Below are positions 7,444-40,938 of a DNA stretch of 41,624 bases, in pieces. Made by a program: the position numbers and the translations under genes. The stretch is from positions 1 through 41,624 of the forward strand of contig JANXZK010000011.1 in NCBI GenBank assembly GCA_025355565.1, read 5' to 3'. The notes under the pieces were generated by a model. It was not told the DNA's origin, did not search any database, and saw only the letters and a program-made list of their open reading frames with translations. How positions within the stretch are numbered: position 1 is the first letter of the stretch; the number at the start of each line of letters is the position of its first letter. The stretch is from a bacterium (GTDB taxonomy: Bacteria > Patescibacteriota > Minisyncoccia > Phycocordibacterales > PALSA-1337).

Positions 7444-7632
7444 ATGCGTCGTAATGACTTTGTTCGTTACATAGAGCGATATAATTGTTGTCTGATTCGT
7501 GAGGGTGCGAGACATTCAATATTCCGCAACATGATTTCCGGTAGGACATCTACAGTGCCAAGACATAGTGAAATTGATGATTATTTAGCCAAAAAGATAT
7601 ATAAGGATCTGGGGATCCCAAAGAAGACATAG
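7444..7632 (+). CDS. hicA: HicA-family mRNA interferase toxin
   Basis: A 62-residue protein with the dsRBD-like HicA fold: G-A-R-H-S-I-F-R-N with the catalytic histidine, then TSTVPRHSEI and a C-terminal helix ending KDLGI, all typical. HicA cleaves mRNA and tmRNA when free. The length and all key residues are normal, so it is probably functional. It forms a module with hicB inserted inside the str operon. Confidence 0.9.
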   Translation: MRRNDFVRYIERYNCCLIREGARHSIFRNMISGRTSTVPRHSEIDDYLAKKIYKDLGIPKKT

Positions 7633-7672
7633 ATAAATCTATAGATTGGAAGGAAAAAATGAGGTCACACAT

Positions 7673-7701
7673 TTGATTTCTTCCTCCTTTTCCCGTATAG
7701 T
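7673..7701 (+). promoter_or_regulatory. Sigma-70-type promoter upstream of fusA
   Basis: TTGATT (7673-7678), a 17-bp spacer and TATAGT (7696-7701). Transcription should start near 7708 and give fusA a leader of about 110 bases. A short T-rich hairpin follows immediately (next feature), which makes the arrangement unusual. Confidence 0.65.
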
Positions 7702-7710
7702 ATGGTCAAT

Positions 7711-7730
7711 AAGCAGTCTCTGCTTTTTTT
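7711..7730 (+). terminator. Short hairpin plus T-run at the start of the fusA leader
   Basis: AAGCAG (7711-7716), loop TCT, CTGCTT (7720-7725), then T to 7730. It could end the hicBA transcript. It also lies only a few bases after the predicted fusA start of transcription. The stem is short (6 bp) with a 3-base loop, so its strength is uncertain. Confidence 0.5.
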
Positions 7731-7818
7731 AACACATTATTTAATAAATTAACCACATTTCCCGCATTCCTCCCCAGCAAAACTCCGGAGGACAAAGGTT
7801 GGAGATGAAAAAACCATC

Positions 7819-9984
7819 ATGAACCGCGACTACCCACTTGAGAAAGTTCGAAACTTCGGAGTCATTGCTCACATTGACGCTGGAAAGACGACAACATCTG
7901 AGCGTATCTTGTATTACACAGGTATGACTCACAAGATCGGTGAAGTGCATGATGGTAATACAACCACTGACTGGATGGAACAGGAGAGGGAGCGTGGTAT
8001 CACGATCACCGCCGCCGCCATAACTTGCTTTTGGAATCCTTCGTACATGTCAAAGACCATGACGAAGGAAGGGCAGGTCGACACGTCAAAGAAAGTTCGA
8101 TTTAACATCATCGATACTCCCGGTCACATCGACTTTACTGTTGAAGTGAAGCGATCCTTGCGCGTCTTGGACGGTGCTGTCGTTGTCTTCGATGGAGTTG
8201 CCGGAGTAGAACCTCAGTCTGAGACGAACTGGCGCTATGCTGACGACGGTAAAGTTCCGCGTCTATGTTTTATCAACAAGATGGATCGTATGGGCGCTTC
8301 GTTTGAACGTTCATTCAAATCGATCTTGGAACGCCTTAACAAAAATGCTGTCAGATTCCAGATCCCTATCGGTCTAGAAGGTGAACACAATGGCGTTGTC
8401 GATCTTGTGCGTATGAAGGCGTACTTCTTCGAAGGTGAGCTCGGTAGTACAGTTATTGAGAAGGAGATTCCAGCAGACCTCCTAGAAGACGCCAAGAAAT
8501 ACCGCGCAGAGATGATCGAGAAGATAGTTGAGAATGATGATGCCGCTATGGCGAAATATCTCGAAGGTAGAGAGATCGCTATCGATGAATTGAAGTCTAT
8601 CACCAGGAAAGCCGTTATAGATAACAAGATCTTCCCAGTTTTCACTGGTTCTGCGCTCAAGAACGTTGGGGTCCAGTTAGTATTGGACGCTGTCGTTGAT
8701 TACCTTCCGTCGCCTCTAGATATGCCAGCGGTTAAGGGTATTGATCCAAATACTGGTGAAGAGATCGAGAGACATGCTTCTGACACGGAACCTTTCTCAG
8801 CGTTGGCCTTCAAACTTCAGAACGATCCATTCGTTGGAGCGCTCACATTTTTCCGCGTGTACTCAGGATCTATAGAGGCCGGCACTTACATTTACAATTC
8901 TTCAACTGGTAAGCGAGAGCGTCTCGGCCGTATCGTCCGTCTCCAAGCTGACAAGCGCGAAGAAGTAAAGAAAGTCTTTGCTGGTGAGATCGCCGCTGCT
9001 GTTGGACTCAAGGACGCTCTAACTTCAAATACATTCTGTGACGAAGAAAAACCCATCGTTCTAGAGACCATCAAGTTCATGGAGCCTGTCGTCTCTCTAC
9101 GTATCGAACCAAAAACCAAGGCTGATCAGGAGAAGATGGGCATGGCATTGAAGAAGCTCGGAAACGAAGACCCAACATTCCGCGTATCATCGAACCAAGA
9201 AACGGGGGAGACGATCATCTCAGGTATGGGAGAACTCCATCTGGAGATCATGGTTGATCGCATGAAGCGCGAATTCAGTGTCGAAGCGAATGTCGGCGAA
9301 CCTCAAGTCGCGTATCGTGAAACCATCCTCGGTAAAGCAGAAGCAGAACACAAATATATCAAGCAGACAGGAGGTAAAGGTCAATACGGGCATGTCCGCC
9401 TCAGTGTGCGACCTATGGAAGCTTGGCCAGAAGGAGAGAAAATACCGAAGACTGTTCACAGGTATGATGATTTTGAGTTCATCAACTCCATAAAAGGAGG
9501 CGTCATTCCAAATGAATTCATACCGGCCGTAGAGAAAGGTGTTCATGAGGCCATGGACCGTGGTATCGTCGCTGGGTTCAAGATGGTAAATGTTTCCTGC
9601 GAGCTCACATTTGGTTCATATCACGATGTTGACTCATCAGAGATCGCATACAAGATCGCCGCTTCTCAGGCTTTCCAAGATGCCGCTAAGCGCGCCAAGG
9701 CTGTTATCCTCGAACCTATCATGAAACTCGAAGTCGTTTGTCCGGAGAAATATATCGGTGATGTGAACGGCAGTATCGCTTCCAAGCGAGGTCTTATCGA
9801 AGGTCAGAATCCAAAAGGCCAGAATATCTCGATCATTGCTAAAGTTCCACTCTCTGAGATGTTCGGTTACACCACTCAGTTGCGTTCGATGACGTCTGGT
9901 CAAGGTAGTGCGATGATGGAGTTCGATCACTACGAAGTCGTGCCTGCGAATGTTGCTTTAGAGATAGCCGAGAAGAGGAAGTAA
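7819..9984 (+). CDS. fusA: Elongation factor G
   Basis: A 721-residue translational GTPase. G1 is AHIDAGKTT (about 17-25), the effector region has ERGITITAA, G3 is DTPGHID and G4 is NKMD. Domain IV carries the conserved GGVIPNEFIPAVEKG and domain V ends with QGSAMMEFDHYEVVP. A lysine-rich stretch of about 15-20 residues between the CFW of the G2 region and the NIIDTPGH block is longer than in E. coli. A Shine-Dalgarno-like GGAGG lies about 27 bases upstream. A six-codon mini-ORF starting at 7805 (preceded by GGAG) ends overlapping the fusA ATG, which may couple initiation. Confidence 0.98.
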   Translation: MNRDYPLEKVRNFGVIAHIDAGKTTTSERILYYTGMTHKIGEVHDGNTTTDWMEQERERGITITAAAITCFWNPSYMSKTMTKEGQVDTSKKVRFNIIDTPGHIDFTVEVKRSLRVLDGAVVVFDGVAGVEPQSETNWRYADDGKVPRLCFINKMDRMGASFERSFKSILERLNKNAVRFQIPIGLEGEHNGVVDLVRMKAYFFEGELGSTVIEKEIPADLLEDAKKYRAEMIEKIVENDDAAMAKYLEGREIAIDELKSITRKAVIDNKIFPVFTGSALKNVGVQLVLDAVVDYLPSPLDMPAVKGIDPNTGEEIERHASDTEPFSALAFKLQNDPFVGALTFFRVYSGSIEAGTYIYNSSTGKRERLGRIVRLQADKREEVKKVFAGEIAAAVGLKDALTSNTFCDEEKPIVLETIKFMEPVVSLRIEPKTKADQEKMGMALKKLGNEDPTFRVSSNQETGETIISGMGELHLEIMVDRMKREFSVEANVGEPQVAYRETILGKAEAEHKYIKQTGGKGQYGHVRLSVRPMEAWPEGEKIPKTVHRYDDFEFINSIKGGVIPNEFIPAVEKGVHEAMDRGIVAGFKMVNVSCELTFGSYHDVDSSEIAYKIAASQAFQDAAKRAKAVILEPIMKLEVVCPEKYIGDVNGSIASKRGLIEGQNPKGQNISIIAKVPLSEMFGYTTQLRSMTSGQGSAMMEFDHYEVVPANVALEIAEKRK

Positions 9985-28508: not shown

Positions 28509-28885
28509 GGGGATGATCGGCATAGACAATCAGCCGTTTCCGTTCGTGCGGTGCGAGCACCATTAACTCGTAAATCTGATGGAAAACTCAAATGCTAAAT
28601 CAACCGTTTCTCCGTATTTCGGAGCAAAGGACTTTGCATTCGCTCTCGTTTAACGAGGCCGTCCTTCTGTAGGGATCCTGACTATAGTGTGGGCGTAATA
28701 ACTTGGATGTAGGGCAGTGTGTCTTCTCAACACATCGTCCGAAAAATAGAGATCGGAGTGTCGCGTTTTGCACGCTTTCTCGGACGACACTCTCAAATCG
28801 CCTTCGGGCGATGTAAAGCTTGCTAACACCGTAGATTCGTTCGATAAACATTGATTGCACGGCGGTTCGATTCCGCCCATCTCCA
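28509..28885 (+). ncRNA. ssrA: Transfer-messenger RNA (tmRNA)
   Basis: A 377-nt tmRNA that, with SmpB, rescues stalled ribosomes. The 5' GGGGATG (28509-28515) pairs with CATCTCC (28878-28884) as a 7-bp acceptor stem; A28885 is the discriminator and CCA is not encoded. The T arm is GGCGG-TTCGATT-CCGCC. Helix 2 is CAATCA/TGATTG. Pseudoknot 1 is visible as CGAG/CTCG interlaced with CCAT/ATGG, ending at 28582. The resume codon is probably GCT at 28594, 12 bases later, giving the tag AKSTVSPYFGAKDFAFALV with stop TAA at 28651-28653. An element is inserted at its 3' end. Confidence 0.95.
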
Positions 28886-30487
28886 CATTTCTTCATTTTC
28901 TTGGTACTTCTGTTTAATCCGTCCTTGCTCCGCCTCACTATTCGGAGGTTCCAACCGACCTGAAACAGTCTTTGCGAACATTACAGCTTTCTCAAGGGTA
29001 GATAGCTGTTTTGTGGGTAATATATTGAGTTTTCCATCTTTTAAGATGTGGTTCCAACCTAAAACGGTAAGTATCTCCTTCCTGCGTTCAGCGTCTCCTT
29101 TTTCAAACTCAGTTCTGGCTTTTGCGGCAAAATCCATGCATTTTTCAATCTCGACAATCCAGTTATTGATTCTGGCGTTCAAGTCTCCTAAGAATGAGGA
29201 AAGCTCGACCTCCTGCTTTTCCAATTCACTTTTCTTTCTTTTGTAATCTTCAGGGCTTATTTCATCTGCCATCCTTAATTCAAGCAATTTATCCAATTGG
29301 AAGGTAATGGAATTATACTCATGTTGTTTCCTTAGTATAAGGGAATCTCTACTATTCTTTTCTTGTTCGTGAATCTCTTTCAAGGTTTCGATAGCCCAGT
29401 CATGGAATACTTTGGGCATTTCCAGCCTTTGTAGAAATTCATTGATTTCCTTTTCCAGGACTTCCTCTCGGATGTTTTTCTGTTTACAGTTGGCATCAAT
29501 CCGTTTCGTGCATCCATAGTAGACATACCGGTGAACATTTCCATTTTGCTGAATCTTTATCTTCTCCTGAGCCGTTATGGCCGCACCGCATTCTCCGCAT
29601 TTCATGAGTCCTGTATAGGCAAAGAAGTGTGTCTTTGGTCTGGGTGCATGTCCTCTGCTTAAGAAGTATTGGATTTTGTCATACTCGGCTTTGGTGATAA
29701 TGGGCTTGTGTATTCCTTTGTACCAATTGCCTGAACCGACAGGGTACTCGAATACACCATAGTAGAAAGGATCTGTAAGTATTCTGTATATGTTGCTTTT
29801 GGAGATTCCCGACTTCTTTCCAGTTCTTGTAGTAAGTCCCAGTTGTTCGTTGGCTATCTTTGTCAATTTGAGGGGGGAGTAGGCGGTAGTTAAAGCAAGG
29901 TCAAATAGTTTTCGTACGATTGGGAATCTTTCCTCATCAACCAAGATTTCCTCTTTTCCTTTCTCGTGGTATTTGCTGTTCTTGTATCCGACAGGGGCGA
30001 TGCTCGGCCTAACGCCTGATTCCAGTCTGGCTCTCAAGCCTCTTTTGATGTGCTTGGAAAGGTCACGGGAATATTGGGTAGCAACTCCGAACTCAACAGC
30101 CGCAAGTAATGCGTTGTCATCAGACCGCCAATCTCTATCAGTTGCCTTGATATGCTTAATAATCCCTTTCTGTAGCAGATATTTAACAGTTCCTTCATCT
30201 ACGGCATTTCGTGCTAATCGATCAATCTTCCAACAGAGAATACCGTCGGCTTTGCCTTTCTGTATCGTATCTATCATCTTTTGGAATTGTTCACGCCTAT
30301 ATGGTTCTTTGGCCGACTTGGCTTCTTGGAATGTTCCTATAACTCTTAAACTTTCCTTTTCGGCCATCTCTTTGACCTCCTTGATTTGAGATTCGATTGA
30401 AGCGACCTTGTCTTCCTTACCCGTCTTTTCAACCGACCGACGAGCATAGATAACATATCTGATTTCCTTTTCTTGTAAGTTTTTCAT
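28823..30487 (-). CDS. Large serine recombinase (integrase)
   Basis: A 554-residue site-specific recombinase. The resolvase domain (about 8-150) has YARRS with the nucleophile S18, and DGILCWKIDRLARN. The recombinase domain (about 165-280) has PVGYKN and ILTDPFYYGVF. The zinc ribbon has CGECG (about 308-312) and two later Cys, followed by a coiled coil (about 355-450) typical of this class. It inserts or excises the element. The last 20 residues (after EEM, starting WRWAESNRR) are antisense ssrA sequence. A TATAAT-like box at 30503-30508 within a TATTATATAATA palindrome lies just upstream of the start. Confidence 0.95.
   Translation of the reverse strand: MKNLQEKEIRYVIYARRSVEKTGKEDKVASIESQIKEVKEMAEKESLRVIGTFQEAKSAKEPYRREQFQKMIDTIQKGKADGILCWKIDRLARNAVDEGTVKYLLQKGIIKHIKATDRDWRSDDNALLAAVEFGVATQYSRDLSKHIKRGLRARLESGVRPSIAPVGYKNSKYHEKGKEEILVDEERFPIVRKLFDLALTTAYSPLKLTKIANEQLGLTTRTGKKSGISKSNIYRILTDPFYYGVFEYPVGSGNWYKGIHKPIITKAEYDKIQYFLSRGHAPRPKTHFFAYTGLMKCGECGAAITAQEKIKIQQNGNVHRYVYYGCTKRIDANCKQKNIREEVLEKEINEFLQRLEMPKVFHDWAIETLKEIHEQEKNSRDSLILRKQHEYNSITFQLDKLLELRMADEISPEDYKRKKSELEKQEVELSSFLGDLNARINNWIVEIEKCMDFAAKARTEFEKGDAERRKEILTVLGWNHILKDGKLNILPTKQLSTLEKAVMFAKTVSGRLEPPNSEAEQGRIKQKYQENEEMWRWAESNRRAINVYRTNLRC
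28879..28887. repeat. Putative attL core in ssrA
   Basis: ATCTCCACA at the end of ssrA. It matches the copy at 37626-37634. The left side is intact ssrA; the right side is element sequence inside the recombinase gene. Confidence 0.65.
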
Positions 30488-30539
30488 AATGATTACACCA
30501 TTATTATATAATATTGTATAGTAATGTACACTTTTCAGT

Positions 30540-30617
30540 TAACATCTAAGGGTATGCTGTGGCCATAAAAGCCGCAGGCATACCCAATGAAGTTAACAAT
30601 ATTAATGTTGTTAATGT
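30540..30617. repeat. Strong hairpin between recombinase and helicase genes
   Basis: Arms GGGTATGC..TGTGGC and GCCGCAGGCATACCC (about 30550-30585, one bulge) around CATAAAA, flanked by GTTAAC on both sides (about 30538-30543 and 30594-30599). It lies 3' of the helicase gene on the minus strand and before the recombinase start. It could be a transcript end or a protein-binding site. A similar GTTAACAT...GGGTAT arrangement lies near the right end at about 37575-37595. Confidence 0.5.
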
Positions 30618-32060
30618 TTAGAAGGGAATGTCTTCGGGGTTTATTGTGTCTGACCCGCCATTTAGGGGTAGTTCGAGGTTGTTCTTGCTGTGTTTTGGTG
30701 CCCAAATGGGTTTTTCCAAACCATACCTGTCAGCAAGGGCTTCCAGAGTGTTTATTTCTTGAGGAAGTGGAATATAGAAGCCACCGCCGTCATGAGCCTT
30801 TCTGATACCTAACTTTTCGACATAAGTCCCGACACGCTTGGCTGATATCGCTCCACTTTTGTAAGAGGATGCACCGTTTTCTGCGCCATAGTGTTTGCCG
30901 TGACTATCGTCGTACTCGTTGTAGTATCGGCGGTCAAACTCTCTGCTGATATCCAGCATGTACATCTTGTTGTGAGTGGTAGTGCTATTGTTTTTGACAA
31001 GGCCTAATATGCATTCGAGGATGTCCGCCTTGATGTCCTGACGCTGTACTAAGGTGAGTTCTCTTTCATAGGAGCGTAAGAATTTCAGCACTTCTGACAG
31101 AACATCGTCGCCTAGTATTTTGGCGACCGTCGTCAGAGCTAATGCACTTTGTTGGAGTCGTGGGAACTCAATCCCTTCGAGGGTGTCCTCATCGGCAATA
31201 ATCTTATTTCGGTGGTCAAATCTGAAGGACATGAGTTTGTTCCTGAGTTCCGCAGCCTTTGCTTCAAACTCATTTGTTAAGTGAATAGGCCGCTTGATGT
31301 TTCTCAATGGTAATAATTGTACCGTGAGACATCTTGATTCCAACGCTTCATCTTCAAACCTTTCCCTCGAAGCCAGAATCTTTGGACCAAAGACATTGAA
31401 TGCCTCGGTTATCCAAGTAGTTTCATTGGCATTTGGTCTCATACGAACAGCAGGACTATTTTTTGTATGGCCTGAATTCAAGTTCTTAACTATCTGGGAC
31501 GACATGTCTGAGTTCTTATAATCTGCTTCATCCATGAGCATTGTGCCTTGGATGAAGTCGTTAGTCCGAAACACCGCAGAGTTGGATATCACACCGCTTG
31601 CAGCGAACGACCTGTAGCAAAGGCGGTTCATGATCTGTAGGAACCTGCTTTTACCCGTACCGAATGTACCGATAACTCGAAGGTAGCCGAGTGCCGAGAA
31701 ACAGTCGTATGTCCATGTAAGGAATACATATACTGCGGCAATCGTTAGAAAACTATCGGGTAATTTCATGTATTGGGCTATGAAATCTCTCACCTCCTGA
31801 AATAGTTGACTGTTGCCTGCATATTGTTTGAATCCTGAGGCTAACTGTATAAACTGCTTTAGGATTAGATGATTCGACGCTGGTACAGGGAAGAAGTCGC
31901 CTTCCTTTTCATTGCTGTATTTATCTTCGAATTTTGGCTCACCATCTCCATGATAAACCAGAAAATTGGTCTCGTAAGTTTCTGGATTGTAAACCGTTTC
32001 CACAATGTCTCCATTGCAAAACACCTTGGAAAATATATACTTTTTATCTTGTTCCTTCAT
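30618..32060 (-). CDS. P-loop ATPase, DUF3631/primase-helicase-like
   Basis: About 480 residues, start ATG 32060 (MKEQDKK), chosen because it follows the upstream small gene by 1 bp. Walker A GTFGTGKS at about 130-138, Walker B LMDEAD at about 173-178, then a region RFEDEALESRC resembling the sensor/arginine-finger part of DUF3631-type helicases found on phages and plasmids. The C-terminal 120 residues are probably DNA binding. It may drive replication of the excised element. The exact family is uncertain. Confidence 0.7.
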   Translation of the reverse strand: MKEQDKKYIFSKVFCNGDIVETVYNPETYETNFLVYHGDGEPKFEDKYSNEKEGDFFPVPASNHLILKQFIQLASGFKQYAGNSQLFQEVRDFIAQYMKLPDSFLTIAAVYVFLTWTYDCFSALGYLRVIGTFGTGKSRFLQIMNRLCYRSFAASGVISNSAVFRTNDFIQGTMLMDEADYKNSDMSSQIVKNLNSGHTKNSPAVRMRPNANETTWITEAFNVFGPKILASRERFEDEALESRCLTVQLLPLRNIKRPIHLTNEFEAKAAELRNKLMSFRFDHRNKIIADEDTLEGIEFPRLQQSALALTTVAKILGDDVLSEVLKFLRSYERELTLVQRQDIKADILECILGLVKNNSTTTHNKMYMLDISREFDRRYYNEYDDSHGKHYGAENGASSYKSGAISAKRVGTYVEKLGIRKAHDGGGFYIPLPQEINTLEALADRYGLEKPIWAPKHSKNNLELPLNGGSDTINPEDIPF

Positions 32061-32061
32061 A

Positions 32062-32220
32062 TTACTTATTGTTATTCTTGTAATCAAGCGGATCGCCGAA
32101 AATTGACTGGTATAGTCGAATCAACCACGATGTCGTCTCGGCAGCTTCTTCCTTCTTAATATCGCTACCGAACTCCTCTATGTAGATTTCAATGAACATA
32201 TCAATTTGTTTTTGTGTCAC
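32062..32220 (-). CDS. Small protein upstream of the helicase-like gene
   Basis: A 52-residue acidic, helical protein read from GTG at 32220 (start MTQKQIDMF); an ATG at 32199 would give 45 residues (MFIEIYIEEF). The stop codon is one base from the helicase ATG, which argues for a real coupled gene. The start follows the T-run of an attenuator-like hairpin. No family recognised. Confidence 0.55.
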   Translation of the reverse strand: MTQKQIDMFIEIYIEEFGSDIKKEEAAETTSWLIRLYQSIFGDPLDYKNNNK

Positions 32221-32418
32221 ATAAATAAAAAGCCCTCAACCACTCACAAGCAAAAAGCTTATAAGCAATTGAGGACTTTCCTAAAGAAGGTGAACGGACA
32301 TCAGCCGTTCTGCCCATCGACATGCAGATGAGGACTTCCTTGGTTTACAAGGGGCAGGACAACAGCCTGCCTGTCCATCACGAATCTGAGTTTAAAAGGA
32401 ACTTGATTAACTGATAAC
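32221..32418 (-). promoter_or_regulatory. Attenuator-like leader of the helicase operon
   Basis: A leader of about 200 nt on the minus strand. It contains GGCAGG/CCTGCC (32353-32371), GAACGG/CCGTTC (32292-32310) and, next to the coding start, a 9-bp stem AGTCCTCAA/TTGAGGGCT (32231-32277) followed by TTTTATTTAT (32221-32230), a terminator-like structure. A second AAGTCCTCA copy (32329-32337) could compete for pairing with the same arm. This looks like an attenuation or antitermination switch controlling replication genes. Confidence 0.6.
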
Positions 32419-32424
32419 GTGTGT

Positions 32425-32453
32425 ATTATAGCAGATTGGAAGAAACAAATCAA
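32425..32453 (-). promoter_or_regulatory. Promoter of the helicase operon
   Basis: On the minus strand, TTGATT (32448-32453), a 17-bp spacer and perfect TATAAT (32425-32430). It overlaps no gene except the short gap after the zinc-ribbon gene. Confidence 0.75.
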
Positions 32454-32458
32454 GCCGA

Positions 32459-32872
32459 TCATTTTCCATGTGTGATATCATATTTATTATCAATTGCTTC
32501 GTCTGCATTATCGGTTTCTTCATTGGGCTGTTCATCCAATGCATCACCAGAAACGGGGTGAAAAATTTTTGAACACTTTCGATTTTGACACTGGAATCTA
32601 TACTCACTTTTTGGTTCAAGTAATTTCGTTCTGCCCCCTTTACCGCAAAATACGCAGAATATCGCCGGATACGAGCCATCTTCTAAGGAATTATCGACGA
32701 TAGTTTTCCCCGAATATCTTGTCATCTTAAGGGTCATCTCATCTGAGTCCAATCTGCTATCGATTGTGAATACACAGCTGCACTTGTGGCAAGCTAGTCT
32801 ACTTCCACTTTTCCGTATTTTTTGACTAGGTGATCCGCAAGATACGCAATATATTTGAAGACGTATATCCAT
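32459..32872 (-). CDS. Double zinc-ribbon protein
   Basis: A 137-residue protein with two predicted zinc ribbons. The first has C9-x-x-C12 and, after about 15 residues, C-x-x-C (LACHKCSCVF). The second has C-x-x-C (FCVFCG) and C-x-x-x-x-C (FQCQNRKC). The C-terminus is acidic. It may bind nucleic acid and regulate the element. The longer overlapping frame at 32407-32679 is rejected as a shadow. Confidence 0.65.
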   Translation of the reverse strand: MDIRLQIYCVSCGSPSQKIRKSGSRLACHKCSCVFTIDSRLDSDEMTLKMTRYSGKTIVDNSLEDGSYPAIFCVFCGKGGRTKLLEPKSEYRFQCQNRKCSKIFHPVSGDALDEQPNEETDNADEAIDNKYDITHGK

Positions 32873-32878
32873 ACGTCT

Positions 32879-32907
32879 ATATTCGTCCCCATTGAATCAG
32901 ATGTCAA
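32879..32907 (-). promoter_or_regulatory. Promoter of the double zinc-ribbon gene, leaderless
   Basis: On the minus strand, perfect TTGACA (32902-32907), a 17-bp spacer and GAATAT (32879-32884), which ends 6 bases before the ATG (32872). The mRNA should start at or next to the start codon. Confidence 0.65.
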
Positions 32908-33070
32908 GTATGATAATTCCTATACGCCCTGACTTTCTCTTCTTTCCAGACATAAAACCTAACATCTGGGACGTATTGTAGCGCATAATGACAATTACAG
33001 AGTAAAGAGCTATCATGGACTTACAACCAAATACAAGGACCTAATCCCCTAAAAAGGCAAGGTTGAAAAT

Positions 33071-33179
33071 CGTTCAGCATATTAAACCCGTCATTTAGGG
33101 CGTGCTGAACGTTGTATAGGGAAACCTATATAGAGCTCTTCGGAGCTTCCTAGTGGCGGGCTTTATGTACACCACTAGG
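33071..33179 (+). ncRNA. Cluster of four tetraloop-type hairpins (structured RNA or replication site)
   Basis: Four adjacent hairpins: CGTTCAGCA/TGCTGAACG (33071-33111, inner CCC/GGG), TATAGG-GAAA-CCTATA (33115-33130, GNRA loop), AGCTC-TTCG-GAGCT (33134-33147, UUCG loop) and CCTAGTGG/CCACTAGG (33149-33179). Stable GNRA and UUCG loops suggest selection as RNA. It ends 9 bases before the small ORF at 33189, so it may be its leader, an independent RNA, or a single-strand origin. It is part of a 316-bp gap (32873-33188) without other genes. Confidence 0.5.
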
Positions 33180-33188
33180 TCATCTCAC

Positions 33189-33392
33189 ATGACCAAACAT
33201 AGACAAATAGCAGAAGAAATCAATAAAAATGCCACAAGCATGGTTATTAACGGCCTCGGCTACCTCGTATACCTTGCTGAGAAGCACTCAAACCTCGCTA
33301 GGACCATAGTCTCCTATAGAGATGATAAATCCATCATCTATGACATATTCAATGGGACTGGAGGGAAGAATTTACATCTGAAGTCGTCCTAA
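33189..33392 (+). CDS. Small hypothetical protein of the element
   Basis: A 67-residue protein (start MTKHRQIAEE) downstream of the hairpin cluster. The frame opens at 33153, but that start lies inside a hairpin. The sequence is amphipathic, helical and not recognised. It precedes the zinc-ribbon membrane gene by 33 bp on the same strand. Moderate doubt whether it is real. Confidence 0.45.
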   Translation: MTKHRQIAEEINKNATSMVINGLGYLVYLAEKHSNLARTIVSYRDDKSIIYDIFNGTGGKNLHLKSS

Positions 33393-33425
33393 TATAATCA
33401 ATCATTATAATTAACCTTCAATTCT

Positions 33426-34046
33426 ATGTATTGTAAAAAATGTGGGGAACATATTTCGGATGATGCAAAATTCTGTAAAGGATGTGGTGAGTCAGTTATG
33501 ACAGATGAGAATAAAGATACTGATGAGGAGACGGAAGATGCTGTCACAGAATCCAGTAAGGAACCTAGAAAGAAAAGAAGGGTATGGATTTGGGTGCTGG
33601 TAGTAATTATCGTCGTTTTTATTTTTGTCGGGTTAAGTCAGAGTCAGAATTCAATTACTTTGTACCCCATCCAGTGTACTGATTGGGCGACGAATCTGCC
33701 AACGGAACCAGGTTTCGTGAACTGCAATCACTCAGAAGCATTGGAGAGGCAAGTATTTACCGTAGATTCTGCTAAAGGACAGGTTATGGAGACGTCTCCT
33801 GATGTGACGGATGTTACTCAACTTAAAAATTGTACTATCCAAGATAATCAACATTGGAGTTGTGGTGACGGCAGTTTCTTTAAAATGCCTGGTGGTATAT
33901 TAACAGCGACACAAATAAGTAGGAGCGGAGACAATTTTAGTGAGCATGGTTTGAGAGATGTTATTTTCGTCACAGAAGACCAGTGGAATTCAATCAATGG
34001 TGGTAGGTCGAGTATCTGCGGCATGAAGTGGTGCGATTCACAGTAG
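33426..34046 (+). CDS. Zinc-ribbon single-TM protein
   Basis: A 206-residue protein. An N-terminal zinc ribbon (YCKKCG at 2-7 and FCKGCG at 16-21), an acidic linker (about 26-48), KKRR, one transmembrane helix (about 57-73) and an outside domain of about 130 residues with six or more cysteines. Such zinc_ribbon_2 plus TM proteins are widespread and poorly understood. Topology places the ribbon in the cytosol. The C-terminal domain is not recognised. Confidence 0.75.
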   Translation: MYCKKCGEHISDDAKFCKGCGESVMTDENKDTDEETEDAVTESSKEPRKKRRVWIWVLVVIIVVFIFVGLSQSQNSITLYPIQCTDWATNLPTEPGFVNCNHSEALERQVFTVDSAKGQVMETSPDVTDVTQLKNCTIQDNQHWSCGDGSFFKMPGGILTATQISRSGDNFSEHGLRDVIFVTEDQWNSINGGRSSICGMKWCDSQ

Positions 34047-34098
34047 ATTTCAAACGCAAAATTCCTACGAATATTAATCAATTATCAATCAAAAAGTT

Positions 34099-35115
34099 AT
34101 GAAAAAATATATCACAATCTTGTCTACAATTGCTGTAATTACGATTCCGTTAGTGACTCATGCAATTTGGTGGAATCCTGTGTCATGGTTTGGAGGTCAA
34201 ACCAATAGTCAGGATGTTACTGAGACTGACAGACAGGCATCGCCTTCGGACAGAATTACCTATTTGAATTCCGTCATTATGTCGAAGGACGAGGAGATAT
34301 CCAATCTTAACACTCAATTGGCAAGTACAACAAAACAGGTGCCCGTCATTCAGACAAAGATTGTGACACAGACGGTGCATGATAATAGTTCAGATGTTCA
34401 GATTGCTAATCTGAATGCTCAAATAACTAATCTAAATACGCAAATATCGGCCATACAAAACAAATACAATATTTGTACGAATCAACTTGCAGCACAAAAC
34501 CAGAATACCCAGATAACTTTACCAGGTAGAATCAACCTTTCGTTAGACTATAGTAATCCTCAAGCAAAATCAGTAAGCACTACGAATGGTCAGTATCAGG
34601 GTCTGCCTGTTCTGATCTTTGATGTCAGTCCGTTAAGTAATGCAGACAGCAGTTTTCATCTTCATACTGTAAATCTTAATATCACAAGCTCAGGACAGGG
34701 TACTATCACCAAAGCGTATCTTTATGGAGTTTATAGTAAAGACCCGATAGCAACTGCGATTGTTAGTAACGGAATGGCCATATTCAATGTTGATGACATT
34801 TATCCAACCACTGTTGGCACTCAGGTATTTACGATTAAAATCGATGCATCAGGTATAAAAGACGTCGGTTCTTTGGTGATATCGGCTTCGGTATCAAACA
34901 TTACTGTGACTGATTCAGGAAACAAACAAATAAATGTTGACGGTTCAGTACAAGGAAAAATAATTACTATAACTAACGCCGTTACCAATAGTTCTAATAA
35001 CTCCTCGAATGTTGTTCCACAAACCTGTCCACAAGGTTATTCAGTGGGAACAGGATTACGTGCAGGTTGTTGCATATCTGGTTCGAATTGGAATGATGTG
35101 TCTTGTGGTGGATAG
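34099..35115 (+). CDS. Secreted coiled-coil protein with Cys-rich C-terminus
   Basis: A 338-residue protein with a signal peptide (about 1-22) followed by WWNPVSWFGG, a start seen in many Parcubacteria exported proteins. Residues about 50-135 form a heptad-rich coiled coil (NLNTQL/NLNAQI repeats). A beta-rich domain follows (about 140-300), then an Asn/Ser linker and a Cys-rich end with TCPQGY and CCISG. Likely a surface fibre or adhesin carried as element cargo. Confidence 0.75.
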   Translation: MKKYITILSTIAVITIPLVTHAIWWNPVSWFGGQTNSQDVTETDRQASPSDRITYLNSVIMSKDEEISNLNTQLASTTKQVPVIQTKIVTQTVHDNSSDVQIANLNAQITNLNTQISAIQNKYNICTNQLAAQNQNTQITLPGRINLSLDYSNPQAKSVSTTNGQYQGLPVLIFDVSPLSNADSSFHLHTVNLNITSSGQGTITKAYLYGVYSKDPIATAIVSNGMAIFNVDDIYPTTVGTQVFTIKIDASGIKDVGSLVISASVSNITVTDSGNKQINVDGSVQGKIITITNAVTNSSNNSSNVVPQTCPQGYSVGTGLRAGCCISGSNWNDVSCGG

Positions 35116-35120
35116 AAAAT

Positions 35121-35301
35121 TACATGAATCCCAATACTGGACGGCGTCATTCTGCTATCAACGCAATGTCGTCAATATATCGATGTCACTGATACTTCCG
35201 ATTTGACCGGACGATATGTTTGTGAATGTTCATCGGGTGATAAATATTGTCAGAAGTTAGAATTTGCTAATAGCAGCTTTTGTATGACAGATTATTATTA
35301 A
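35121..35301 (+). pseudogene. Possible Cys-rich C-terminal gene remnant
   Basis: An open frame without a usable start reads to TAA at 35299-35301. It encodes a Cys-rich end (YVCECSSGDKYC and SSFCMTDYY). Its cysteine spacing resembles the end of the secreted protein just upstream, so it may be the debris of a duplicated or frameshifted C-terminal domain. Weak evidence. Confidence 0.3.
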
Positions 35302-35960
35302 TCCAACGACCCCAATTGGACACCCTCAATAATGGGTAATAGTGTCACAATTCTTGCAGCACCTTAGTAATTAAATAGTCTGAGTTGTCCTCTCATTAAG
35401 TCATTGTCAAAGTCATCTAGAAACATTCTGGCAGGGACTCTAACCTCTCAGTAGCCCCTGATTGTGTAAAGTTGGATGACTCTATACTCTTCATATATCA
35501 ATGTACAGAAGAAATTGTGGGTATGCTGATAACAGCATAGAATGCAGTAGTCGAGTCACATCTCGCCCTAGGGGCAGGTCTTTGTTTTTGACTGTTGAAC
35601 AGTGGTATAACAGTTAATATCTCCTGAGAAGCAGGAAATTAACAAGGAATTTTGATCTGGAAACAGATGAATATCAGATTGGTTGTAAGGTATAATTATA
35701 TAAAAGCGGTTACGAGACCTCTTCGCAAAGGGGCGCCTTTGGGCGGTATTGGCCGCCGCTTTTTGTTCTTAAGAAGAATAATTTATGAGTTTGTGTATAT
35801 ATTCGTATAGTCAAAATCTGAGCTGTTTGACTGGTATTTCATACGTCTACCGCTATTTCATTTCAAGAAGACATAAAGTCTAGCGCTTTAAGTCACTCTA
35901 AAATTATCGTCTCGATCTTTGACATTTTGGTACCCTTTATTTAGTATCTACTACGAGTAT
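35302..35960 (+). other. ORF-free tract of about 650 bp with dense RNA hairpins in its second half
   Basis: No plausible coding region on either strand. The first part (35302-35515) shows nothing I can name. From 35522 to 35769 hairpins are packed closely (next feature). The last part (35770-35960) is AT-rich upstream sequence of the HEPN-like gene. Confidence 0.5.
35522..35769 (+). ncRNA. Candidate structured RNA island in the element
   Basis: Hairpins in order: TATGCTG-ATAA-CAGCATA (35522-35539); GTTAAT/ATTAAC enclosing CCTG/CAGG (35613-35643); ATCTG-GAAA-CAGAT with a GNRA loop (35655-35668); then AAAAGC/GCTTTT (35702-35763) closing AAAGG/CCTTT (35727-35740) and GGCGG/CCGCC (35742-35757), ending in a T-run. 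A TTGACT at 35588-35593 could be a -35 box. The final multibranch stem works as a terminator. No known RNA family recognised; coordinates of the 5' end are uncertain. Confidence 0.45.
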
Positions 35961-36470
35961 ATGGAGAACAAATATCCAGTTGAATTTATAAGAGGGACTC
36001 TGATTGGAACACTTGAGTCAATGTTACCCTCAGGACAACACGGTTATCCTTATGAATTATTTATTCTAATTTCGATTGGAATCGAATACCTTGGTGCGTG
36101 TGAAGATTCGTTTCCTTGGCATAAAAAGAGATGTAGCGAAAGTAGATTTCATGCAGGTCTTCGTCTTCTCGGTCCTATTTATGAAAAGGAAAATGAAATA
36201 TTATATAAGAAATTACGATGTGGTATGGCACATGTATTTGCGCCTGTTATTGGTTTAGGATTGGGGGAAAATCGTCATAGTACTGAAAATTTGCACACAT
36301 TCACTTATGGTGATAACGAGAAAGGGCTTGATCTTAATGTTGACATTCTATTTTCCGATTTTAAGAAAGCATGCAAATTAGTTATTAATAAGATTGATGA
36401 AAGGGGGTATGTAGAGGGTAGTAAAGTCTATGAACCTTTTTTATCGGTGCCAATTTCAAAAAATGGTTGA
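35961..36470 (+). CDS. HEPN-like protein (possible RNase of a defence type)
   Basis: A 169-residue, mostly helical protein; start ATG 35961 (MENKYPVEF) within a frame open from 35919. It has R86-C-G-M-A-H91, fitting the R-x4-6-H motif of HEPN RNases, in a context LYKKLRCGMAHVF that matches the usual helix. HEPN proteins are frequent toxins or antiphage effectors on mobile elements. No clear antitoxin partner is adjacent. Classification rests on one motif and predicted helices. Confidence 0.4.
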   Translation: MENKYPVEFIRGTLIGTLESMLPSGQHGYPYELFILISIGIEYLGACEDSFPWHKKRCSESRFHAGLRLLGPIYEKENEILYKKLRCGMAHVFAPVIGLGLGENRHSTENLHTFTYGDNEKGLDLNVDILFSDFKKACKLVINKIDERGYVEGSKVYEPFLSVPISKNG

Positions 36471-36529
36471 TGATACGGGAGAACCATTATAATCACATTT
36501 AAGTCCAAAATCTATTACTCAAGATATAC

Positions 36530-37243
36530 TTACGCTTGCTTCAATATATTTGTAAGTTGTATCTCTGATTTGATAAGATTGGGTAGAATTTTGTTATTAA
36601 AAGTGTCAATTTCGTAAACAAATATGTTAGTAGGAAAAGGCGTTTTCTTTGCTGATATTAACTTTTCGATGTCATCTTGAGAGATGGTTTTATTCACGGA
36701 TATGAAATAAACGTTGCATTCCAGATGTTGGTATTTTGGCAATTTAATGTTTATTTGGCCACGAAGACTATCAAGATCGCGAGCAAAGAAAAGATCTATC
36801 GCAAACCCATTTATTTCTGATGTGTAAATAAAAAAATCAGTATCTGTTTTGTCTCCGTTATTTCTCATGACCTTATGTTCATGTACAAAAACAGGGGGTA
36901 TCCGTTTAATGAGGAAATCATAGTATTCTTCTTCGTACTTGTTAGCTCGCAAAAAAGCCATCTGAGCGATGTCACTTCTTCCTTTGCCACGATGATTATC
37001 AGTGATTTCGTGTTTTAATCGCAAAGTCTTTCTTATTGTCTGAATTCCTCCGAAGTTCCTTTCTATATATCTTCTTGTCGGTAAGTACTTATATTCATCA
37101 AGTTCTCTTGAATTAGGATAATGGCCGTATTCAATAAAATATTGTTCAAAACCCGCCTCAATATTTTCGATTGTCCAGCTGGAGTCACTAACAATTGGTC
37201 TACCGACGCTTGTTATATTCCATGTCTTCAAACTATTTTCCAT
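36530..37243 (-). CDS. Putative PD-(D/E)XK-like nuclease with an N-terminal DNA-binding repeat
   Basis: A 237-residue protein. Residues about 28-75 (GHYPNSRELDEYKYLPTRR, then FGGIQTIRKTLRL) resemble the short helical repeat associated with homing endonucleases. Residues about 125-190 show a pattern of D in TDTDFFIY, then AIDLFFARD and INIKLPKY, which could be a D...(D/E)xK nuclease core. It is convergent with the HEPN-like gene. Likely a cargo endonuclease of the element. Confidence 0.45.
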   Translation of the reverse strand: MENSLKTWNITSVGRPIVSDSSWTIENIEAGFEQYFIEYGHYPNSRELDEYKYLPTRRYIERNFGGIQTIRKTLRLKHEITDNHRGKGRSDIAQMAFLRANKYEEEYYDFLIKRIPPVFVHEHKVMRNNGDKTDTDFFIYTSEINGFAIDLFFARDLDSLRGQINIKLPKYQHLECNVYFISVNKTISQDDIEKLISAKKTPFPTNIFVYEIDTFNNKILPNLIKSEIQLTNILKQA

Positions 37244-37347
37244 ATGTATTTATTGAATAGATTCGATAGTTCTTTTAATTTCTTCTCAAAAAGAAATTAC
37301 TTCTTCTAGCGTACAAGTATATATCGTCATTCACCCAAAATGGAATC

Positions 37348-37539
37348 CTACTTGCATCTAAAACCCAACGGTTCTAATTTCCTTACTGATGCAGTTTCGA
37401 TTTTTATATCATCACTGATGATAGCACTTCCCTTATAGCACTTCAACAAAGCAATCTGTTCCGCCTTCTTTTGGTTTTCAGCTTCTACGATTATGTAACC
37501 TTCGGAAATCTTTTTTACGTGTACTTCATATTTTTTCAT
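37348..37539 (-). CDS. DpnD/PcfM-like small protein
   Basis: A 63-residue protein starting KKYEVHVKKISEGYIIVEAENQ-like: a beta strand, then VEAENQKKAEQIA helix. This is the pattern of DpnD/PcfM proteins, found on plasmids and conjugative elements with unknown function. It fits a mobile-element context and is the last gene before the predicted right end. Confidence 0.55.
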   Translation of the reverse strand: MKKYEVHVKKISEGYIIVEAENQKKAEQIALLKCYKGSAIISDDIKIETASVRKLEPLGFRCK

Positions 37540-37625
37540 AAAATGTGTATCAGATAATTAATGTCATTAACATCGTTAACATTGGAGAAGGGTATCCCTG
37601 AAACAGGTTCCAACTTCATTCACTA

Positions 37626-37634
37626 ATCTCCACA
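37626..37634. repeat. Putative attR core
   Basis: Second copy of ATCTCCACA. The bases right of it form ACAAAAATA...TATTTTTGT (about 37632-37669), which would be a natural terminator directly after an intact ssrA. Confidence 0.55.
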
Positions 37635-37746
37635 AAAATAAGGAGCGTAGCGACTATATTTTTGTAGGATGCCGCCTGCAAGGCGGCGCCACAAAAATGT
37701 AATGATATATATTTAGGGTCTCTTGCTCATTGCACAGGTATCCTCA

Positions 37747-38967: not shown

Positions 38968-40938
38968 ATGGCTGAAAATAGCACAAATTTCAATCAAAAA
39001 AACACTAGATTATCTAATAATGGTAAAAAATCTGGCAAGAAAATCTCTGGAAAAATCGGTAGTTCTGGTACGCCAAAGATGAGTTTTTTGAATATCATCG
39101 CGATCGTAATATTGGTATTTCTATTGCTCGGTGGCCTGTATTCTCAATATTCTTCGAAATCGACCAATACCACAGCGACTTCACTCTCATCGATCGCTCA
39201 GGATGTGCAAAAAGGTAAGGTGACCTCGCTCGATGTCCAAGGGGACAAGATCATCGCGGTTTATGTCGACAAGTCTGTCATGACTACGCAAAAAGAAGCG
39301 GATTCATCGATCACAGAAAGCCTCTCGAGGCTGGGAGTCTCATCGGCGGTTCTCGCTTCGACGACGATCACCATCGAGAGCCCTAGCGGCTTCTGGTATG
39401 TCGTGGGAGAGATCGCGCCGTTCCTCGTGCCGCTCATATTTTTGGCGATATTTATCTGGATGATATCGAGACAAGTCCGCGGCGCTGGTATGCAAGCGAT
39501 CTCATTTGGTCAATCCAAAGCTCGTATCACTCTGCCAAATGACACAAAACAAAAGGTCACGTTCAAAGATGTCGCGGGAGCGAAGGAGGCCAAGCAAGAA
39601 CTATTGGAAATCGTGGATTTTCTCAAGAATCCAAAGAAATTTATCGATATCGGCGCGGAGATTCCAAAAGGTGTGATACTCATGGGGGCACCTGGAACAG
39701 GTAAAACACTACTCGCACGTGCGGTCGCAGGTGAGGCGAACGTGGCCTTTTTCTCAATATCCGGATCAGAATTCGTGGAGATGTTCGTCGGCGTCGGTGC
39801 CTCTCGAGTGAGGGATCTATTCAAGATGGCCAAAGATGCTTCGCCATCTATCGTGTTCGTCGATGAGATCGATGCTGTCGGTCGAGCGCGTGGATCAGGA
39901 ATGGGTGGTGGTAATGATGAACGTGAGCAGACGTTAAATCAGATACTAGTCGAAATGGACGGATTCGAACCAAATGAAAAAGTGATCGTGATGGCGGCAA
40001 CAAATAGACCTGATGTCCTGGATCCGGCACTCCTGCGTCCTGGCAGATTTGATCGACGCGTGGTCATCGACTTGCCTGATAGGGCAGACCGCGAGGAGAT
40101 ACTCGGGATACATTCGAGCAAGAAACAGCGAGCCGAAGATGTGAATATGAAGATCGTGGCAGAGAGAACACCTGGCTTCTCTGGTGCGGACTTGGCAAGT
40201 CTGATGAATGAAGCGGCGATATTAGCGGCGCGAGAGAATCGAACGAAGATCGGCCAGTTCGATCTCATGCGCTCGATAGAGAAAGTTATGCTCGGTCCTG
40301 AGCGTCGCAGTCATGTCCTGTCGGTCAAAGAAAAAGAGATCACTGCATATCATGAGGCCGGGCACGCGATCATCTCATCAGTTTTGCCGTATTCTGATCC
40401 AGTCCACAAGATTTCCATCATCTCCCGAGGTCGTGCGGCTGGTTATACATTGAAATTGCCTTTTGAGGAAAGGAGACTGCAATCACGACGGGAATTTCTG
40501 GATGATATCGCGGTATCGCTCGGTGGTTATGTCGCCGAAAGGATGATCTTTGGGGATATGACGACTGGAGCCTCGAATGATCTGCAAGTTGCCACAGCTC
40601 TCGCTCGTGATATGGTTACTCGATACGGCATGTCGGAAAAGATCGGTCCAGTTGCACTCGAGAGTGCTCAAGGCAAGGTCCTCTTTGGCATGGGGGTCTC
40701 TGACAGGGAATATTCGGAGAAGGTTGCGGCTGAGATAGATTCTGAGGTCTCACGTATCATGATGGATGCGCGTGCTCTGGCAGAAAAAACATTGGGTGAG
40801 CACAAGAATGCTTTTGATGCTGTCGCCAAAAGGTTGGTTGAAACAGAGACCATCGAGAGAGAGGAATATGAGCTTCTGATCGCGTCACAAGGTATAATAG
40901 TGAAGAAGAAAGAAGGTAGCTTGCCAGTTTCTGGCTGA
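38968..40938 (+). CDS. ftsH: ATP-dependent zinc metalloprotease FtsH
   Basis: A 656-residue membrane AAA+ protease that degrades misfolded or regulatory proteins. A polar N-terminal extension of about 40 residues, TM1 (about 41-60), a short outside domain, TM2 (about 148-168), Walker A GAPGTGKT (about 240-247), Walker [13 protein letters not shown] with RPGRFDR, and the zinc site HEAGH (about 462-466). The 40-residue Asn/Lys/Ser-rich extension before TM1 is longer than in E. coli. Complete and probably active. Confidence 0.98.

Follow-up and report, generated by a model that had tools for sequence, protein, structure and literature searches.

A mobile element at ssrA in a patescibacterium is predicted to carry attP within its own large serine recombinase gene

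In the 41,624-nt contig analyzed here (the window), a large serine recombinase (LSR) gene ends inside the antisense strand of ssrA, and the locus raises the question of whether a mobile element exchanges the C-terminus of its own recombinase upon integration and whether such an exchange would regulate the enzyme. The genome that contains the window comprises 832 kb in 27 contigs. An insert of 8747 bp (~8.75 kb) separates ssrA from ftsH, and the ssrA 3' end is the target of the element (attB half). The locus contains the following features:

28509-28886, plus strand: ssrA (tmRNA), identified by ARAGORN and by Rfam RF00023 (88.6 bits)
28879-28887: left core copy ATCTCCACA (attL)
28823-30487, minus strand: LSR, 554 aa when integrated, with residues 537-554 from antisense ssrA
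30618-32087, minus strand: 489-aa protein adjoining the LSR, family unassigned
32459-32872, minus strand: 137-aa Cys-rich, zinc-ribbon-like protein, 47% identical to a protein of the G002 element
33038-33148, plus strand: LOOT RNA (Rfam RF03000, 61.5 bits)
33426-37539, both strands: five cargo ORFs, namely 206 aa (zinc ribbon and predicted membrane segment), 338 aa and 183 aa on the plus strand, and 237 aa and 63 aa on the minus strand
37626-37634: right core copy ATCTCCACA (attR)
37635-37669, plus strand: displaced ssrA terminator-like region, matching the sequence directly 3' of ssrA in G012
38968-40938, plus strand: ftsH

The tag encoded by ssrA was AKSTVSPYFGAKDFAFALV. The 489-aa neighbor of the LSR was found to be kept in the G002, G017 and G389 elements (46-52% identity), and family searches with the cargo proteins yielded no informative family. 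We also observed that the LOOT RNA sits within the mobile element, between divergent ORFs.

The sequence-only reading had considered the two core copies, which are identical over 9 bp, as putative crossover sites. By itself, this repeat is weak evidence for element ends; the 9-mer falls within a 10-kb interval in 4.9% of Markov-1 simulation trials, and no direct repeat longer than the core was present between the element ends. Comparison across genomes proved decisive. G012, a genome of the same genus, revealed an empty site in which ssrA is joined directly to CTCCACAAAAATAAGGAGCG. The sequence CTCCACAAAAATAAGGAGCGAAGCGACTATATTTTGTAGGA lies directly 3' of ssrA in G012 and only after the right core in the window. 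Over 35 nt, G012 was 94% identical to window positions 37635-37669 (E 3.7e-10), whereas the G012/window alignment spanning ssrA reached only 71% identity. Among the window's own genome and 99 related genomes, a 20-mer of the G012 junction flank occurred exactly only in G012 and at window position 37628. The downstream flank of this empty locus matched the sequence after 37634, which backs the proposed ends. The predicted empty ssrA junction is CATCTCCACAAAAATAAGG, and the rejoined ssrA flank folded as a terminator-like hairpin of -26.8 kcal/mol (60-nt fold), with similar hairpins after ssrA in several empty loci; the hairpin was absent from the integrated flank (0.0 kcal/mol). The gene order smpB, ssrA, ftsH, tRNA-Ile was conserved within the genus, and the ssrA-ftsH gap of the window without the element was 1.33 kb, with the shortest gaps in the same genus ranging from 0.7 to 1.1 kb (G008, G012, G021, G029 and G033). 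GC content fell from ~0.46-0.50 outside the element to 0.32-0.44 inside. A chance core match, with the true ends elsewhere, would fit the 9-mer probability of ~0.05 and the absent longer repeat, but is scarcely credible, as it is countered by the terminator reconstruction, the spacing and the GC step and is refuted in the main by the G012 empty-site match. At the level of these sequence comparisons, the empty site, terminator, ssrA-ftsH spacing and GC settle the element boundary.

The window enzyme is an LSR by its domain set, comprising the Pfam domains PF00239 (Resolvase), PF07508 (Recombinase) and PF13408 (Zn_ribbon_recom), each above its cut-off, and it would presumably catalyze attP x attB recombination. 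The structure model contained long helices at residues 359-406 and 412-462, which fit the coiled coil expected of a serine integrase. A CcrB model matched residues 1-404 (E 1.5e-26, under the curated cut-off). The recognized domains ended early, at residue 352 for Pfam and at residue 489 for a phage integrase family match. The LSR frame runs over the left core to a stop codon within antisense ssrA and, as the earlier reading had it for coordinates, frame and peptide, both 9-bp copies are in place and EEM is followed by 20 residues, WRWAESNRRAINVYRTNLRC. Upon joining of the inner ends, which gives the predicted circle junction CACTAATCTCCACATTTC, the ORF becomes a 552-aa LSR ending in MWRLVNEVGTCFRDTLLQC, so that attP would lie within the recombinase gene, as had been proposed. 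The two predicted forms were identical through residue 536 and then differed over 18 residues (integrated) and 16 residues (free), which is close to the anticipated change of ~17 residues; the C-terminal ends were LVNEVGTCFRDTLLQC (free) and WAESNRRAINVYRTNLRC (integrated). The ORF thus stays open on integration, with 554 aa versus 552 aa. The C-terminal change is well supported at the level of sequence, with excision as a prediction. We found no attP junction in the assembly itself or in viral contigs, and no close viral relatives of the window LSR were found.

We then compared the window LSR with relatives inserted at ssrA. The LSRs of G002 and G017, both 68% identical to the window LSR, enter ssrA in the same phase and stop 64 nt from the core, and the G002 element measures ~8.5 kb with the right core TGTGGAGA. 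In the sister element of G002 (L063:5454-6374), a 306-aa ORF was found in place of the window cargo, and its start resembled a reverse transcriptase as judged by eye. More distant LSRs sited at ssrA were found in G325, G297, G199, G086, G083 and G312. Eight of the nine ssrA-targeting LSRs read through into ssrA, seven of the nine in the same phase, a count by which read-through could be favored. The exception, L209 (G312, 51-53% identical), ends at a stop of its own 10 nt short of the core, which indicates that an element can insert at ssrA without such a fusion. Comparison of C-termini among relatives, which the sequence-only reading had called for, showed the ssrA architecture to be shared with G002 and G017 and the predicted free tails of the window and G002 to be unrelated. 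As far as sequences can tell, the insertion-linked overlap of LSR and ssrA is confirmed.

The same arrangement was not confined to ssrA. Among 97 complete LSR ORFs of at least 480 aa, from this order and a few outliers, 77 ended within an antisense tRNA or tmRNA gene (74 by ARAGORN and three further tmRNA cases by Infernal), and because the sequences are related and were gathered by similarity to the window LSR, these counts are descriptive rather than independent. None of the 97 LSR ends overlapped a tRNA or tmRNA gene on the sense strand, and three ended just before a tRNA. The stops of L125 and L212 precede their tRNAs, and both other LSRs of the same genome end in antisense tRNA genes, namely tRNA-Leu for L200 and tRNA-Arg for L201. 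The targets across the order included tRNAs for Ser, Gln, Asn, His, Tyr, Lys, Arg, Leu, Ala, Thr, Glu, Phe and Trp, together with tmRNA. On these annotations, an LSR ending in ssrA or a tRNA gene is a common arrangement in these bacteria. In contrast, 28 of 30 members of a shorter LSR group (~430-480 aa) were without such an overlap, and this contrast group has a different target preference; several of these proteins (L127, L139, L144 and others) end near EKRELL.CLKSK.

Several other arrangements were observed at LSR ends. In two others of the 97 ORFs, L112 (17577-17840) and L214 (3145-3506), group I introns were located on the antisense strand right after the LSR ends, and they probably split the target tRNA genes, which ARAGORN misses. 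The upstream LSRs at L167:7078-8550 and L179:8317-10089 had tails without a tRNA and likely belong to tandem elements. The L179 tail LCALWDDIRTEL was found again in the free tail predicted for L175, a recurrence that suggests an attP-like junction between elements. A fecal phage contig, L235 (MT836653.1), encodes at 7535-9156 an LSR of 26% identity that ends in antisense tRNA-Glu, which indicates that the pattern reaches beyond this order.

All three antisense frames were in use (36/13/10), and the tails were unrelated. The frame used had a median tail of 19 codons, compared with 25 codons for the remaining two (Mann-Whitney p 4e-6, computed on related sequences); since the used frame stops earlier, the stop is often provided by the host tRNA gene. 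This frame comparison gave no indication that long fused tails are selected for. An automatic attR search of 30 tDNA-linked LSRs with at least 2 kb upstream revealed clear long cores only in L136, L175 and perhaps L142, so the free tails are not comparable at a large scale.

The explanation that we regard as quite probable is that of an integrative element whose attP overlaps the end of its recombinase gene. The LSR would insert the circle at the ssrA 3' end, with the circle's attP overlapping the final LSR codons, and recombination at the core would place antisense ssrA in frame behind the LSR codons, so that the final 18 residues and the stop would come from ssrA; upon excision, the circle would supply 16 other residues and a stop. 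The overlap would be kept since the end of the gene also acts as an arm of attP, not for regulation by the tail, which would be essentially neutral. The DNA itself shows both element ends, the frame, the predicted tails, the empty site of G012 and a matching architecture in related elements, and from these we infer LSR catalysis, excision and a near-neutral tail. Because the tails are unrelated in three frames and a relative stops early, the tail looks like a by-product of attP overlapping the gene end. Codons for identical residues were conserved more often just before the core than elsewhere (19/27 vs 489/1033, Fisher p 0.02), and the predicted window attP had imperfect inverted-repeat arms around the core (p 0.02), with the G002 attP inverted repeat not significant (p 0.29). 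Pre-core conservation and inverted arms would fit a DNA-binding site, as modest signals. Some caution is due, as the neutrality is deduced from tail non-conservation.

In an alternative explanation, the integrated and free LSR forms would differ in activity, stability or direction through their C-termini, much as the sequence-only reading had envisaged in a built-in switch. The C-terminal change is real at the sequence level, the tyrosine integrase of phage Mx8 offers a precedent (PMC6070905), and McMurdie et al. floated the same idea for DsiB (PMC3146451). However, the predicted G002 free tail, MWRRCEDTLNRDRNADDVLVFHNDEIITHLCMNYYFH, shares only MWR, which belongs to the core, with the window free tail; in addition, L209 at ssrA stops before the core, and tail frame and length vary with each target. 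The last 35 residues had pLDDT values under 50, in a model that was built from a six-sequence alignment and is too poor overall (mean pLDDT 63) to weigh. With unrelated free tails, an early stop in a relative and dissimilar tails in three frames, the switch function is unsupported by the comparisons, and we consider it unlikely. A broader version, in which tRNA and tmRNA genes across the order would be both target and source of the C-terminus and the host-encoded tail would set LSR activity in some elements, appears similarly improbable; if true, the integration state would be written into the protein.

A transcriptional alternative appears unlikely, by which loss of the terminator would let ssrA read-through produce antisense RNA that damps the integrated LSR gene, whereas the free circle would have no ssrA promoter. 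The loss of the hairpin between the predicted empty site and the integrated flank (-26.8 vs 0.0 kcal/mol) would agree with such a switch, as would the weakly folding flanks of G002 and G017 (-6.3 and -7.6), but a clear hairpin is also missing in some uninserted loci (G008, -1.1).

Under the attP-overlap explanation, the window element is an uncomplicated instance of a recombinase gene with attP inside it, the element ends being proven by an empty site. Of greater weight is the pattern across the order: according to a 2015 survey of genomic islands located in tRNA and tmRNA genes, no serine integrase was known to use a tRNA gene as its target (PMC4383910), whereas tRNA or tmRNA genes are the targets of most long LSRs here. 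The pattern gives many att site predictions, and it also serves as a warning that the database C-termini of such LSRs are partly antisense tRNA rather than conserved protein.

Several known systems resemble the window element in part. In the integration-dependent immunity of mycobacteriophage BPs, the gene with the attachment site is the repressor, and the C-terminal change controls lysogeny. Thus, the repressor gene is altered in BPs, whereas the recombinase gene is altered in the window. For BPs and its relatives, the attachment site is situated inside a coding gene, and the protein C-terminus is altered on integration (PMC4557955). Suicidal (SSV-type) archaeal integrases have their att site inside the integrase gene (PMC8371274). 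These tyrosine recombinase genes are split by integration into two inactive parts, whereas the window LSR gene is not disrupted and only its last 18 residues change. The Mx8 int protein also belongs to the tyrosine family, unlike the window serine recombinase. As in the window, attP lies inside int in this Myxococcus phage, and int acquires a different 3' end on integration; the altered int remained active with changed specificity and was described as a molecular switch (PMC6070905). For Mx8, the swap was thus reported to affect function, in contrast to the window, where it is a sequence prediction.

The overlap architecture and the switch idea both have precedents; its serine-recombinase form in Patescibacteria, and how widespread that form is, are apparently undescribed in the literature searched. 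The ssrA-specific islands of Dehalococcoides are comparable to the window element in LSR type, ssrA target and 3'-end overlap, with DsiB considered here from its description. DsiB is a CcrB-like LSR of ~540 aa (McMurdie et al. 2011, PMC3146451); its gene adjoins attL, its 3' end overlaps ssrA and its stop codon lies beyond the island, and the authors noted that the circular form may carry a functional end (PMC3146451). The window host differs in belonging to Patescibacteria, another phylum, and the gene neighbors are different. No element ORF of the window matched reductive dehalogenase models, the six-gene integration module with DsiA that marks DsiB-type islands was absent, and no second small recombinase (DsiA counterpart) was present among the element proteins scanned. 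For want of this second recombinase, we do not file the window element in that island family; with insertion at the ssrA 3' end, an empty site and an LSR stop inside ssrA, its sequence indicates that it works like a DsiB island.
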